Shown: piece by piece, positions 2,632 through 37,029 of the stretch
How the letters are laid out: the number at the start of each line of letters is the position of its first letter
How positions within the stretch are numbered: position 1 is the first letter of the stretch
Source: Sialis fuliginosa
Taxonomy: Eukaryota; Arthropoda; Insecta; Megaloptera; Sialidae
DNA length: 64,000 nt
Direction of reading: 5' to 3'
Assembly (NCBI GenBank): GCA_961205875.1
Contig: OY540809.1
Coordinates: forward strand, 20,410,267-20,474,266
Made by a program: the position numbers and the translations under genes
Notes under the pieces: generated by a model
What the model was told of the DNA's origin: nothing
Seen by the model: the letters and a program-made list of their open reading frames with translations, nothing else
Database searches by the model: none

Positions 2632-3490
2632 TTAAGGGGTTACACTTAATGTTGATAATTTTTTATTGGCTTAAATGATGTATAAACATCTTAAAAATTA
2701 TATTCAAAAGGAATTATAAGCACGAATAATTTTATTTTATTTTTAGATTTCACATTCCAAAGTATTAAATGAGTGATAATGAGTATATGGTAATGAAAAG
2801 GGGCACTGTAATTCGGTCTCAAGCCAAAACAGAAGCTAAATAAGTAACCGAAAACCCCCAAACCGATACAATCTCAAAAAAAGTCTAACGTCAACGTTTG
2901 CATGTAGTAAAACAGTTTTCAAACTTTAAACTCATTGTTATCGAAACTATGTTTTTAAAAACTACGGAAAACGTATCTTGGCCATTTTCCATCCGATCGA
3001 CTTGAAATTTTAACTGTAACTTATTAGATAGATTTTACATCGAATTACACCCATAATTCACGGTTGATTGATTGGTTAACAATTGCGGTTTTTATAAACA
3101 ATTTAAGATCGTTTTTCTCGTCAAAAACGCAATTTTTTGTTTAAAGTGATACAAAATATGTAAAAATCGATATTTTTTAATAATCGTGTGTACTTTGATG
3201 GAAAAACTCATGTAAATAACGAGGAATTTTTTTTTGTTCTGGTTGTTGATCCATGGAAGTTCTGTTTTCCGCACTAGAGCACATAAAAAAAAGATGCACT
3301 CAGTGTAGCAGCGCTAAAGTCATCATTTTGTTTTATATTTAATTTAAAAAATATTTTTATTGTATGTTTTGAGACATGTACAATTGTACAATAAAGCCTC
3401 CAAATTTAATTTAATTGCTTTTTTTATTATTCTAAAAAAATCCTAAAAAAGTATCATTTTCCGAAGTGACGATTAGATGTAACCCCTTAA
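2632..3490. mobile_element. TTAA-flanked non-autonomous element 1
   Basis: Flanked on both sides by TTAA (2632-2635 and 3487-3490). Directly inside are 'ggggttaca' on the left and its inverse 'tgtaacccc' on the right. The 851-bp body has no coding capacity: the 60-codon minus frame at 3092-3274 has no recognisable features. A TTAA duplication is the signature of piggyBac-type cut-and-paste transposition, so a piggyBac-like MITE is the likely class, although the inverted ends are short. Confidence 0.75.
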
Positions 3491-6439: not shown

Positions 6440-7127
6440 TGGTTCTGTTAAAAAATGAATGTGACTGTGTTGGGATGCACAACACACGAGGGATTGACGT
6501 GAATACGTATCAGTGGGGTTAAATAAAACTTGTATAATATGGTTATTTTTTATGATTCGTACAAAAAATTAACTAATACTTACAAGCAAAATTGTGGAAA
6601 TACGAAATTTACTTTTTATTTTTTTATTCAATTTAAAAAACTTTACTCAAAAAATTAAAAACGTTTCTGCACAGAAAACATATTCCTATGTACTGTTATT
6701 TTTTTAAATTTAGTTAATTCATATTTACAAGTAAAATCGTGGAAATACGAAATTTCCTTTTTATTTTGTTATTCAATTTAAAAAACTTTAATAAAAAAAT
6801 TAAAAGCGTTAGGTCATAGAGACTATATTCTAATATACTGTTATTTTTTAAAAATTCAATTAATTAATATTTACAAGCACAATCGTGGACATACAATTTT
6901 TTTCTTTTTTGTAATATGCAATTTTTCACTCATTAAACAGGTTAAATGTTTTATTTTTTATTTGTATCTCGTAGATCTAATCGAGATCTATAATTTGGTA
7001 TCAAAACCCTTGGGATAGCTACTCTGAGTGTCGAGGTATACCAATTTTAAATTCACGCTAGCGTGCAAACTGATCTCAGCGCGTTACATAATGTTTCTGA
7101 AGTGCCTACCCAGTATCTGGCCTGAAA
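6440..7127 (+). repeat. Interspersed repeat family B, copy 1, left part (split by the hAT element)
   Basis: This matches the reverse complement of 23210-23740 through 'gtgactgtgt', 'gagggattgacgtgaatac', 'cactgggg/cagtggggttaaat', 'atctcgtagatct', 'agtgtcgaggta' and 'ctgatctcagcgcgttac'. A third, shorter match is at 47480-47765. The hAT transposon interrupts it after 7135, and it resumes at 10688 with 'gttatttacgt'. A 145-bp unit inside it is repeated (see 6581-6910). Confidence 0.8.
6581..6910 (+). repeat. 145-bp tandem duplication inside repeat B
   Basis: Three starts of the same unit are visible at 6581, 6726 and 6872 ('tacaagcaaaattgtgg', 'tacaagtaaaatcgtgg', 'tacaagcacaatcgtgg'), spaced 145-146 bp. 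Two units are full and the third is partial. They share 'ttcaatttaaaaaacttta' and 'tactgttattttt'. The inverted paralogue near 23480-23590 has only one unit, so this is a copy-specific expansion. Confidence 0.7.
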
Positions 7128-7135
7128 CTCTAGAC
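7128..7135. repeat. hAT target-site duplication, left
   Basis: 'ctctagac' directly before the left terminus, identical to 10680-10687. Eight base pairs is the duplication length of hAT transposases. Confidence 0.95.
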
Positions 7136-7157
7136 CAGGGATGTAACGGATGTCATT

Positions 7158-7284
7158 TTAGCGGATGAGGATGCGGATACGGATATTGGGAATGTAGGGT
7201 TGGGGATGCGGATGAGGATACGGATGATTGTGATGCTATTTTGGAGGATGCGGATGCAGATGCGGATGCGGATGCGGATATGAA
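7158..7284 (+). repeat. Left subterminal GCGGAT repeats of the hAT element
   Basis: A dense cluster of 'gcggat', 'gaggat' and 'acggat' hexamers just inside the left end. Subterminal hexamer arrays in hAT elements are usual binding sites for the transposase BED finger. The motif lies on the plus strand here and also on the plus strand at the right end, so the two arrays are direct, not mirrored. Confidence 0.75.
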
Positions 7285-8025
7285 TAATTTATTTGATAAA
7301 TAATATTTATTGTAATTTTATGAAATTTGTTTATTAATAAGGTAGTCCATGTGATACTTGCTGGTAGTTGATAATAATAATTGGGTTATTTTTAAGTTGG
7401 CTACATAATAAAATAATACAATGTATGGACTATTATTTAATTAATAATCAAATATATATTTTTTTAAAGTAATACAAAAAATTTACAGTTGATAATTTAA
7501 CTAAAGTACAACTATTGAAAAAATTAAATAATATTAAACAAATTTTCTTTTTATGTGTCAATTTCTCAAAAAAAAAATTGTATAAATATGTTTCTTAATT
7601 ATTATTGAAAATATCGTCTTAAAAATGTATTTTTATTACCTTTGATGAAGGGGTAAACTTGGCAACGTCACACATCAACAAATTTATTTTCTAGTAGTTT
7701 TACTTTAATTGTGAAATCTTAATTGAATACTCAATTACTCAATTGAATTTGAATATACAAGCAGGGATGCATATGTGTCATATACCTCTATGCCTCTTTA
7801 GTTCATAAAATTGAGTTCAATGTTGTAATATAAGTTGCAGCGTTGCCAAATTTCATGAATTTAATTTTAATTTTATCGTTATTTGATTTAAAAAATGTAA
7901 AACATACCATAGTACTGAAAAAACACATTTTTATCAAAATATATTTTTTTGAGCGTTAAAAAATTACATTAAACCGTCTATAGTACTATATCATCATTGT
8001 ATAGATAAAATTAAAAAAAAAAACT

Positions 8026-8031
8026 TTTATT
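8026..8031 (-). terminator. Polyadenylation signal of the hAT transposase
   Basis: AATAAA on the minus strand about 30 bases past the stop codon at 8061, a normal distance for a polyadenylation signal. Confidence 0.5.
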
Positions 8032-8060
8032 TTTCATGCAAATACCTTCTTAAGAAAAAA

Positions 8061-10235
8061 TTAATACTCAAAATTAAGTAATGGTAAATTATATCTAATG
8101 AAAAGTAATTTACAAGCTTTTTCACCTTCCAAACGACTTCTCAATTCGTCATAGATTAAACCTGCTCCGCTAAAAAGTTGTTCACTAGGAACACTAGCAG
8201 GTGGAGGTGATAAAAATTTCCGTACAACATTATATAATTTTTCGTATTTAGAATTTTGATTCCACCATAACAGTGGATCTTCATTAATGTTAATTTTTTT
8301 ACTTTTATTATAATCGTTCAATAAAGTTTTATGTACTGCAGATTGGTCACGTAGTATATTGGCATTGTCATCATCTTCATCGCTGTTTGTGTTCAGGACA
8401 TCCATTAATAAAGAATTTATTGTAGGCATTTTTGTTTGGATAACATTTCTATCATAAGTGGAAGGTTGAGGTTCGTCATCGTTTGTCTTTTGTCTCTTGC
8501 GTAAAGGTGATGTATGCATTGAACTTGTGGCTTCATTCACATGGTCATCAAATAGAGCTAAAATCTCTTCCTGAACCTTGTCTTTTAAAATTTCGTTGAA
8601 GAACTTCATTTTGAATCTCGGGTCAAGGTATGTGGCAAGTGCGAAGATATTTCTGTTTTCTAGTTCGCCAAATCTAGCATTCATTTCCGCTGTTAATTTT
8701 TTAATAATTTTTTTAAAGGTCGGGTTTGTATCATTTCTTTCTTCTTCTTCTTGTAAGGATCTTTTTAAAATGTGCGTAAGAGGGATTACGGAAGAAATAC
8801 ATGATTGTAAATTGCTCATTTCTTTAGTAGTTTCTTCGAACGGTTTTAAAATTCTTATACATTTTTCAATATCCCGCCACTCTTGTGGAGATATTTGCTG
8901 TATGTGTGTATTTTTATTAACGTATAAACTTAGCGCATCTTTTATTTGTAGAAGGCGTTCCAACATGATGAGCGATGAATTCCACCTGAAAATCGAAATA
9001 TTCTTATACATATGTATATGAAATCAGTCTTAATACCCTTTTTGAGTTCTTTTCGTTTAAGAAGACCCTAAATTATGTTCAAGCACTAAAAATATGTATG
9101 AAATTTAAAAAAGGGTTGAAAATTAATTTAGATCTAAATTTTGAAAAATTAAATTAACGCAGATCTTATTTTATCGAATTCAGTTTTCTCAAACAGTGAA
9201 TAATTCTCAACAAATAGATTATAGATATCTACATAGTACATACCTTGAAGGACAATCTTGCACGACGGAAAGTGGAGTTTGATTCAGTAGCTCTTTTTGT
9301 ATTTTATTTAATTCATTTTGGGCAAGAACTGAATGTTTAAAATGAGCTGCAACTTGCTTACATTTTGAAATCAATTTTGTTACATATTCTTCAGATTCCA
9401 AGGCTGCACGTACACATAGTTGCAATTTGTGGACAGCACAATCTATATCACTGTAGTTCGATAGTTGCATTGCCCTCCTCATGTTAGCACCACCGTCACG
9501 AACCATGCAATGAACTTTATCTGATGGTATCTCCCAATATTTTAGCATAGATTCAAATTTTTCAGCTATGTTCTCACCAGTGTGGCGACTTTCAAAAGTT
9601 TCACATTTTAACATAATATTAAGTCTATGAAAATCACGAGTGATTCCGTGGCATGTTAAGCTCAAGAGAGATACACCTGCACTCGGTTCTGACCATATAT
9701 CACTTGTGAAAGATAAATGATCCACGTCTTTTAGTAGAATTTTAATTTTGGATACTACCTTTGGATAAATGTCATCGGTCATATTTAAGGTAAAAAATTG
9801 GCGACCCCTTAAATGATATCGAGGTACAACTGCATGCATCAATCGTCGAAAACCTACCCCTTCAACAAAGTTAAACGGTAAATTTTGCAACGCAATCATT
9901 TCAGTAATAAGTTTATCTATTTCTTTACTTTTTGGGTAAGATGTTTCCCATGCATTTTTATTTAAAACATATTCTTGTAATGTCACCTGTTTCTTAGCTT
10001 GTTGCATAGGGGATAAAATTTGTTTCTTTTTCTCCAATTCATTTTGCTGTTTAGTCTCTTCGTTAAGCTTGATGAACTCTTCGTACTCAACAGAATGAAT
10101 GGACCGAAGATGATTCTTTAAAGAAGTTGTACCCCGTCCCTTACGTGATAATTCTTTTTCGCACAATTTACATTTCACTAGTTCACTTTTTATGTCTATA
10201 AAATATGTCCAAATACAACTTGTCTTAGGTTTCAT
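8061..10235 (-). CDS. hAT-family transposase, two exons, 638 aa, intact
   Basis: Cut-and-paste transposase acting in the nucleus on the ends of its own element. The CDS joins 10235-9244 (992 nt) to 8985-8061 (925 nt) across a 258-bp intron. Splicing completes R331-W332 in the family motif 'QDCPSRWNSS' and gives 639 codons with stop. An N-terminal BED zinc finger uses C22, C25, H42 and H47. Catalytic candidates are D179 ('SFTSD'), D247 ('VRDGGAN') and E599 ('VPSEQLF'). The 68-residue D-D spacing equals that of Hermes as I remember it (D180, D248, E572). C266 and H269 form the conserved CxxH. The tail 'DPLLWW...FLSPPPASVPSEQLFSGAG' is the hAT dimerisation region. The start is the first Met, directly before the BED finger. 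No frameshift or stop is seen. The closest type is ZBED/hAT-Ac-like, inferred from the domain layout only. Confidence 0.93.
8986..9243 (-). other. Intron of the hAT transposase gene
   Basis: On the minus strand the donor is 'tcaag|gtatgt' at 9244/9243 and the acceptor 'ttttcag|gtgg' at 8986/8985. Both are canonical. The intron has in-frame stops, and removing it restores the conserved 'PSRWNSS' segment, which is why I prefer splicing to two separate genes. Confidence 0.88.
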
Positions 10236-10548
10236 AGTTTTAATAAAAGAGATCAGGCGTCACGTTCGAACTCAGTGAAATTAAAACGTACACTAAAATT
10301 GACACGCCTCTGCATAAAAATATTTAGTATTTCAAAAATCGGATGCATTTTTGTACATTGTACTATCATAAAAAAATTCCTAACGAACACTTGACCTACG
10401 CAGATGGATGCACATGTGTAAAGGGATATTGGAATGCAGAAACACAGCCCCTTTCTGTAATTTCTCTTTCCTGGAACCAAGTTACGAGTAACAGCTAGTT
10501 AGCTTATAGTTTTGTAGAAAATATCCGTTATAATATCCTCATAGAAAG

Positions 10549-10668
10549 ATGAGGATGCGGATGAGGATGCGGAGTTAAAAAAATTTAAAGTTGCGGATAA
10601 GGATGCGGATGAGGATATGTAAATTAATGCGGATAATCCGCAGTTGCGGATGCGGATGCGGATATCCG
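10549..10668 (+). repeat. Right subterminal GCGGAT repeats of the hAT element
   Basis: About ten 'gcggat' or 'gaggat' hexamers, with one palindromic 'gcggataatccgc', lie between the transposase 5' region and the right terminus. They are upstream of the transposase gene and so may also act on its promoter (inference). Confidence 0.75.
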
Positions 10669-10679
10669 TTACATCCCTG

Positions 10680-10687
10680 CTCTAGAC
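10680..10687. repeat. hAT target-site duplication, right
   Basis: 'ctctagac', identical to 7128-7135. Repeat B continues at 10688. Confidence 0.95.
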
Positions 10688-16567: not shown

Positions 16568-16858
16568 TATACCTTTTCAACTTCAAATTGAGACTAATCA
16601 ATTTCAAATTGGGAATAATCAAATTCAAATTGGGAATAATCAATTTCATATTGAGAATAATCAATTTCAAATTGAGACTAAACAATTTCAAATTGGGAAT
16701 AATCAATTTCAAAGTGAAGTTGATTGTTCCCAATTTGAAAATGTTTAGTCTCAATTTGAAATTGATTATTCCCAATATGAAATTGTTTAGTCTCAATTTG
16801 AAATTGATTATTCCCAATTTGAAATTGATTAGTCTCAATTTGAAGTTGAAAAGGTATA
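16568..16858. repeat. 291-bp palindrome built from a 21-bp minisatellite
   Basis: The left arm begins 'tatacctttt' and has about six 21-bp units of the form 'caatttcaaattgggaataat'. The right arm is the inverse and ends 'aaaaggtata'. The centre is near 16713. Arms differ at few positions by eye. Because 21 is a multiple of three, the array is open in both strands, giving frames of 102 and 125 codons with a seven-residue repeat (INFKLGI-like); these are artefacts. RNA from this locus would fold into a near-perfect hairpin of about 140 bp. Confidence 0.9.
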
Positions 16859-23204: not shown

Positions 23205-23760
23205 CATTTGGCACTTTTGACGTTAATAATGTCTGGAGTTTCAGGGCAGATACTGGGTGGGAATTTCAGAAATGTAACGCGCTGAGATCAGTTTTGCGCG
23301 CTAGTGTAAATTTTAAAATCAGTACATCTCGACACTCAGAGAAGCTATAAAGTGGGTTTTGATCTCAAATTATAGACCTAGATAAAATCTACGAGATACA
23401 AGTAAAAATTAAAACATTTAACCAGTTTTTATGACTGATAAAATTAATATTATAAAAAAACAACAACAACAAATAACATTTTTTATGTCCACGATTGCGC
23501 TTGTAAATATTAATTAATTGAATTAAGAATAATAATAATAATAATAACAGTTTATAAGAATATATTCTGTACGACCAAACGTTTTTAATTTTTTGATTAA
23601 AGTTTTTTAAATTGAATAAATCATAATAATTATCTTATACAATACTAGTCTGGGTTTTATTTAACCCCACTGATATGTATTCACGCCAATCCCTCGACTG
23701 TGTATCCCGACACAGTCACATCCATTTTTGTTGTAATTTCAGCTGTCAAATAACCTATCA
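23205..23760 (-). repeat. Interspersed repeat family B, copy 2 (carries the empty hAT site)
   Basis: Inverse of 6440-7135 plus 10688 onward. The sequence at 23221-23245, read on the minus strand, is 'cctgaaactccagacattat' then 'taacgt', uninterrupted where copy 1 has the hAT element. It has a single copy of the 145-bp unit and an (aat)n run at 23529-23547. The 78-codon plus frame at 23114-23350 crosses its edge and is not a gene. Confidence 0.8.
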
Positions 23761-36029: not shown

Positions 36030-36351
36030 ATCTACACGAGCGTGAGAATTTCGTTGCATTACGTAAATTTCACCCTGAATGCGTCTAAAGAAGTATTACT
36101 TCAAAAAAAGATTCTGATGTTAAATTATAACGGTTCGATTCGGGTACAGGTTAAGTTTAAGTATAAATATTAAATATACAGCGTTCAACAGCATTACTGG
36201 GTTCAACTTTTAGATTCGTTTAAAATTGGTTCTCGTGAGTTTTTCTAGATATTTTGTACAGTGTGTGTGTGTTCGAAGTGTTCATTATTATATTATTTAC
36301 ATTGTGTGAAAGTTTTATTACATAACATAATTGCAATAGTGTCTAATCATA

Positions 36352-37029
36352 ATGAAAGCTAGAATAACAAAATGTAAAATGTTACCCTCTCGGCACGCTC
36401 AATTAGAAATATTATTTTCTGATGAGAAAATGTTCCTTTTACTGGACGCTTTCAATCAACAGAATGATAGAGTGTATTCTGTATCTCTTGCTGTTGTTCC
36501 TAAATGTAATAAGCTGTTTAACGTTTCCAGAACGTCTCTCGTGTAATGGTTTGGGGAGCATTATCAAAAAAATGCAAATTACCGTTACACTTTATGGAGT
36601 CAGGGGTAAAAGTTAACCAAAATTACTATATCGAGACAGTTTTAAACAAGCATTTTCTACCCTATTCCAAGGACTATTATTGCGAAAACTATTATTGCTT
36701 TCAGCAAGACTCAGTTCCTGCACATAAGGCAAAAAAAGACAATTGAGGAGTATCTATATTCTGTGCAATTGAGTGGTTAAAAAAGAATGTCCCTGATTTT
36801 ACCGAACCATTTGAATAGCCTACTGCTAGATTTAAATCCCTTGGACTATTTTACATGGGACTACATGTTAGGAAAACTGAGGAAGCTGAAACGCTTGAAA
36901 ATTGATGAATTTAAAAAACTTTTCATTAAGATTTGGGATTAAATACCATAAGATATGATCTGTGCCTCGTTTGGAATTTTCTCAAAACGAATAAAACTCG
37001 TAATTAGTGAAAAAGGATATAGATTTTAA
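36352..37029 (+). pseudogene. Decayed Tc1/mariner-type transposase
   Basis: Pieces in order: 'ILFSDEKMF...FNQQNDRVYS' (36352-36546, the first catalytic Asp region), a frameshift near 36540, 'MVWGA...KLPLHF...GVKVNQNYY' (36546 on), 'CFQQDSVPAHKAKK' (second Asp at 36708-36710), a break near 36745, 'EWLKKNVPDF', then 'DLNPLDYFTWDYMLGKL' (third Asp at 36829-36831) and a tail ending at TAA 37027-37029. The last two Asp are about 40 codons apart. The N-terminal DNA-binding half is not recognisable, and no terminal inverted repeats were found. It has at least two frame breaks and a stop in the tail, so it is inactive. Confidence 0.88.

Follow-up and report, generated by a model that had tools for sequence, protein, structure and literature searches.

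Positions 7128-10687 of a 64,000-nucleotide stretch of Sialis fuliginosa DNA (the window), situated on contig C1 of the assembly, raise the question whether a complete hAT transposon lies here, as originally predicted from the letters alone, and whether it has been mobile in this genome recently. Very probably, the locus is an autonomous hAT transposon with an Ac-type target preference, which has recently transposed in this genome.

Boundaries of the element and its transposase gene

The structure was re-derived from the sequence. The hAT element occupies positions 7136-10679 (3544 bp) and lies inside contig C1, inserted in a copy of a dispersed host repeat. The features of the locus are as follows:

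6905-7127, resuming at 10680-10687 and for 6-37 further bases depending on the paralogue; no strand; dispersed host repeat, the insertion target (joined-flank search)
7128-7135; no strand; left target-site duplication, 8 bp, CTCTAGAC (read from the sequence; a single uninterrupted octamer in the paralogous empty sites)
7136-7151; plus strand; left terminal inverted repeat, 16 bp, CAGGGATGTAACGGAT (perfect match; window and genome counts)
7161-7279; plus strand; left subterminal array of GCGGAT/GGATGC units, putative binding sites of the transposase BED finger (motif counts)
8985-8061; minus strand; transposase exon 2, with the end of the core including E599, the hAT C-terminal dimerisation region and a TAA stop (translation; PF05699 at aa 553-631)
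9243-8986; minus strand; intron, 258 nt, GT-AG (position and phase identical to those of the sister-family intron)
10235-9244; minus strand; transposase exon 1, with the BED finger (C22, C25, H42, H47), D179 and D247 (translation, Pfam, Hermes alignment)
10548-10663; mostly plus strand, with one GCGGAT and two CGGAT on the minus strand; right subterminal array of GCGGAT/GATGAG units, putative BED sites
10664-10679; minus strand; right terminal inverted repeat, 16 bp (perfect match to the left end)
10680-10687; no strand; right target-site duplication, 8 bp, CTCTAGAC (read from the sequence)

The prediction of a complete hAT element was thus confirmed in its ends, its duplication and its gene: the 8-bp duplication is perfect (7128-7135 and 10680-10687), as are the 16-bp inverted ends (7136-7151 and 10664-10679). 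With up to three mismatches allowed, the 16-mer CAGGGATGTAACGGAT has two matches in the window, which are the element's own ends, while the chance level is 0.19 on average (3 of 100 shuffles reached two). Genome-wide its exact form occurs 75 times, versus 0 for the reversed control pattern. In a literature text search (forward orientation) there was no hit to the 16-mer or to its initial 14 letters, and the initial 12 letters matched just 10 papers, with titles on bacteria or a phage.

The transposase gene is located on the minus strand and comprises two exons, which, spliced in silico, code for an unbroken protein of 638 aa, with C22, C25, H42, H47, D179, D247 and E599 all at the positions predicted for them. 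The numbers 9243 and 8986, by which the junction had been described, denote the bases with which the intron begins and ends, respectively; 9243 as the final exon base was ruled out, as a frameshift results. The join reads ...CPSRWNSS..., compared with CPTRWNST in the Hermes alignment. Pfam identifies a zf-BED domain (PF02892) at aa 8-48 (E=1.3e-10, above the curated cut-off) and Dimer_Tnp_hAT (PF05699) at aa 553-631 (E=3e-13, 49.8 bits against a cut-off of 21.4), while hAT-like_RNase-H (PF14372) scored 23.6, below its curated cut-off of 27.

A phmmer search of the PDB returned four distinct sequences at E<=8.9e-17, of which the best is the Hermes transposase (E=3.9e-19). Two of the four are named Hermes transposase and the other two only 'transposase', which we take to be Hermes as well. 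In the alignment, D179, D247 and E599 are matched by the D, D and E of the motifs 'TIDLW', 'VTDRGAN' and 'ASERTFS', the catalytic triad of Hermes. For the N-terminal BED region, the alignment with full-length Hermes does not reach significance, and the similarity of the two transposases is to be regarded as modest. Judging by its sequence, the transposase is probably functional.

Copies of the element and its empty sites

A search of the host assembly (20 contigs, 392 Mb in all) with the left end of the element gave at least 55 matches; 40 of 141 candidates were scored, so that the counts are lower bounds, and the 39 sites other than the window's own were fetched. A copy on contig C12 (G000:C12:14883598-14887141) matches the window element at every one of its 3544 positions and is bordered by its own perfect 8-bp duplication, TATGTATA. 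Another one, on contig C5, differs by 10 substitutions and two single-base gaps (99.66% identity), has the perfect 8-bp duplication GTTAGAGT and encodes 638 aa with one amino-acid change, I166M; two of its substitutions fall within the 1917 coding bases and eight within the other 1627 (Fisher p=0.051). The flanks of both copies are unrelated to those of the window element, the three sites being on three contigs. The genome-wide check proposed with the original prediction therefore yielded an identical and a near-identical copy, and not diverged copies only.

An identical 3544-bp copy on another chromosome implies that the element moved recently. The mutation rate of insects is 2.8-3.5e-9 per site and generation; at this general rate the identical pair, with 0 differences, has an upper bound of ca. 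120,000-150,000 generations, and the 10 differences of the C5 copy correspond to ca. 400,000-500,000 generations.

With the element removed, the joined flanks have at least 38 matches elsewhere (of 1541 candidates, 40 were scored), and all 38 alignments cross the junction and end 6-37 bases past it. In alignments inspected by eye, the octamer region is single and ungapped in all eight fetched paralogues of the repeat, CTCTAGAC being exact in two, altered by one change in five and by two changes in one. A ninth paralogue, within the window itself (23212-23459), likewise crosses the junction uninterrupted. These empty sites are paralogues of the host repeat and not alleles. Together with the C12 twin, which sits at an unrelated site between its own perfect duplication, they bear out the predicted recent insertion.

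It is very improbable that the copies arose by segmental duplication, gene conversion or an assembly error and not by transposition. Such an origin would agree with the complete identity of the C1 and C12 copies along their 3544 bp, but the flanks are unrelated, each copy has a perfect 8-bp duplication of its own, and the paralogous repeats show the site uninterrupted. Segmental duplication was rejected on the unrelated flanks, and gene conversion is conceivable in principle for the identical pair.

Two observations concern the host repeats. Four of the eight fetched copies of the target repeat read CACGTCAAAA right before they diverge, which resembles the end of a repeat. The joined flanks of the C12 copy have at least 38 other matches, which start at 181-199 of 400 bases, most with 94-98% identity; this copy is situated at the edge of a dispersed repeat, and so there is no clean empty site there.

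Short derivatives, a sister family and the age of the lineage

Perfect 16-bp ends facing each other as neighbours form 25 pairs in the genome, three of them 3542-3544 bp apart and 22 of 145-2200 bp. Of the short pairs 17 were fetched, and all 17 have sequence in common with the full element. Among the 39 fetched loci (C12 and C5 included), 23 carry a perfect duplication on at least one element, 26 one with at most one mismatch, and 13 none. The end filter was passed by 23 short elements, L023 and the composite that holds it being counted separately, and L026 and L028, which have poorer ends, were left out of the block comparison of these 23. In 16 of the 23 the blocks break off at position 480 of the full element and restart at 3377; by eye, GAAAATATC is present at both breakpoints, and the 16 elements thus probably go back to a single deletion event at a microhomology. 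L030 and L042, the shortest of all, match mainly the left end. It is worth mentioning that L023 (G000:C9:6160300-6165300) is a derivative nested in a derivative, with perfect 8-bp duplications TTGGTAAG inside ACATGAAC.

The left blocks of the derivatives are 71-96% and the right blocks 76-98% identical to the intact copies (gaps and changes in repeat number counted), so that most of them seem to predate the intact copies now present. The transposase probably mobilises, or once mobilised, such short derivatives keeping the ends of the element.

A protein search of the genome with the transposase returned at least 81 matches (69 of 231 candidates scored). All three near-identical full-length copies have an intact frame, which gives at least three intact copies among the candidates scored. 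A decayed near-full copy on contig C9 is 91-98% identical in DNA over three blocks and is disrupted by a premature stop, by frame breaks and by an insert. A sister family was found at at least seven places, with 56% identity in exon 1 and about 50% in exon 2, and the other matches comprise coding fragments (70-89%), many of which derive from the C-terminal part, and hATs that are more remote. Contig C14 (16.8 Mb of the 392 Mb) holds 23 of the 81 listed matches, most of them distant hATs of about 30-45% identity; it may be a repeat-rich chromosome.

The sister family (L048, G000:C2:16397300-16401900, and L050, L051, L061 and L062) consists of elements of about 5.26 kb with the left end TAGGGATGTTACGGA. 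Two of its copies differ, end to end, by one base in 5256, and both have 8-bp duplications of their own, ATTCTTAC and ATATTAAT (by eye), indicating recent movement of a second, related hAT family as well. The one sister copy that was read throughout codes for 630 aa in two exons; its intron, of 725 nt, occupies the same position as that of the window element. The two transposases are identical at 331 of 626 positions (53%), with the frame and all seven key residues kept; pN is 0.30 and pS 0.80, dS being saturated. At the sequence level, this comparison speaks for the splice model and for the protein having been under selection ever since the two families diverged.

The intact protein and the purifying selection against the sister family (pN 0.30, pS 0.80) are also what a domesticated, ZBED-like host gene derived from a hAT element with transposon-like ends retained would display. 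Such a gene is extremely improbable here, considering the perfect ends and duplications and the presence of three copies on as many contigs, each at an unrelated site, and it was rejected on this evidence of mobility (the identical copy and the independent sites).

A recent arrival of the intact copies by horizontal transfer, founding the family in this genome, would be in keeping with full copies that are few and nearly identical. It is nevertheless quite unlikely, as the decayed C9 copy, the many diverged derivatives and the sister family with the same intron point to a lineage resident in this host. A viral carrier found no support in a scan of IMG/VR with six peptide patterns from exon 1, which detects close relatives only and gave no match.

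Recent transposition of a resident autonomous element is thus the preferred reading, and what remains to be weighed is its present state. There is an appreciable, if lesser, chance that the element is intact but silent, a recent mover all copies of which are now off (e.g., owing to piRNA silencing), and so a fresh relic. The small number of intact copies found (at least three) and the older look of most short derivatives agree with this, while the identical 3544-bp pair and the intact frame in three of three copies leave little time since the last move. Expression of the element, its splicing in vivo and its present activity are what we infer from sequence.

Target preference, subterminal arrays and known hAT elements

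Target preference was analysed on 25 perfect duplications, 24 from the fetched loci (L026 and L028 included) and one from the window. Of these, 17 have T at position 2 and 18 have A at position 7, i.e., nTnnnnAn (binomial p=8.5e-7, with 35.5% assumed for each base), and 13 have both. Among the full copies, the duplication of C12 fits at neither position and that of C5 at one only. A central TA, present in seven of the 25 (expected 11%; p=0.016), is a weaker signal than T2/A7; TA at the centre is the target preference of the Buster family of hAT.

The nTnnnnAn pattern is stated for Hermes (in the available part of PMC10368747) and for hobo (likewise PMC8961557). The hAT superfamily is described, in the excerpt of PMC3942097, as having terminal inverted repeats of 10-25 bp and elements of 2.5-5 kb; the window element has an 8-bp duplication, 16-bp ends and 3544 bp with one transposase gene. 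Its protein has a C-terminal dimerisation region, a D-D-E aligned with that of Hermes and an N-terminal BED finger. Such a finger is common in hAT elements but not universal. The element is a hAT, a new example of a previously known kind of transposon, and the two features that suggest an Ac-type placement are its target preference and the Hermes similarity.

The spliced 638-aa transposase would bind the subterminal CGGAT arrays via its BED finger and use an active site made up of D179, D247 and E599 to cut at the terminal inverted repeats, and the excised element would insert at a staggered 8-bp target, giving rise to the 8-bp duplication. Excision of hAT elements proceeds through hairpins in the flanking DNA.

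Within 250 bp of the left end CGGAT occurs nine times on the plus strand and 0 times on the minus strand, and within 250 bp of the right end seven and two times, respectively, the background in the rest of the window being about 0.1 per 250 bp and strand. As the terminal repeats are inverted and the arrays lie on the same strand, the latter face the interior of the element at the left end and the flanking DNA at the right one. The left end has no minus-strand CGGAT in 24 of the 26 elements counted (the exceptions are L030 and L042), and at the right end plus-strand copies outnumber minus-strand ones in 23 of those 24 (L038 is a tie), though these strand counts are not independent, since the elements are of common ancestry. 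The same-strand CGGAT array at both ends is the least ordinary feature of the element.

Hermes (Musca domestica; hAT, Ac family) resembles the window element, as far as the available part of PMC10368747 describes it, in its 8-bp duplication with nTnnnnAn, short inverted ends, BED finger, D-D-E core, C-terminal dimerisation region and subterminal repeats laid out differently at the two ends. Significant protein similarity is confined to the core and the C-terminus. The two differ in the zinc ligands (C-C-H-H in the window element, C51-C54-H71-C73 in Hermes) and in the subterminal repeats (CGGAT arrays and AAGT/AAGC, respectively) (PMC10368747, same part). There the left Hermes repeats STR2-STR7 are called antisense and the right STR1-STR5 sense (PMC10368747), so Hermes may be a partial precedent for same-strand arrays, a match of geometry not being readable from this description. 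In Herves (Anopheles gambiae), another insect hAT, one short motif is also repeated in both subterminal regions, and the transposase binds it, but the motif is CG/AATTCAT and the ends are 11 bp and imperfect, in contrast to CGGAT and the perfect 16-bp ends here (excerpt of PMC3143072). Ac/Ds of maize, like the window family, comprises an autonomous element and internal-deletion derivatives with both ends, while its inverted ends are of 11 bp and not 16 bp (excerpt of PMC3260210).

For hAT-derived proteins with BED or Hermes DNA-binding domains, the preferred sites contain CGG or CGC as a rule, and those of the four hAT-encoded proteins tested match the subterminal regions of the parent element (according to the accessible part of PMC8097297). 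Most of the CGG-binding proteins are host genes, while the window element is mobile; by analogy, the CGG preference of hAT BED domains fits its CGG-based arrays. A tentative and rather doubtful proposal is that the element works now, that the same-strand CGGAT BED sites distinguish its ends, the left and right being bound differently, that this polarity is kept in the mobilised derivatives, and that the two sister families, whose intron is shared and whose ends are related, may cross-mobilise each other's derivatives.

hAT elements that are both intact and recently mobile are uncommon, and such elements have supplied gene-transfer tools, among them Hermes, Tol2 and TcBuster. The knowledge of hAT elements in general is unchanged by this one. 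Since a single assembly holds the intact element together with its identical twin, a degenerate copy, derivatives formed by deletion and a sister family that also moved recently, the cycle of autonomous and non-autonomous elements and the role of end-repeat polarity are directly testable in it.

As for the surroundings, a Pfam scan of 10 of the 116 open frames listed in the window gave just SieB and DOP1_C, both weak and below the cut-offs. Two overlapping plus-strand frames at 36340-36743 look by eye like pieces of a broken Tc1/mariner transposase, with no Pfam match for either. At 16577-16849, tandem 21- and 42-bp units (TCAATTTCAAATTGAGAATAA) have long open frames on both strands and are a repeat, not a gene. 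Close to its end, at 47.09 Mb, contig C1 has (TTAGG)n repeats, which are in keeping with an arthropod host, and it also has short internal (TTAGG)n tracts, e.g., at 3172183, 11555363 and 30138870.
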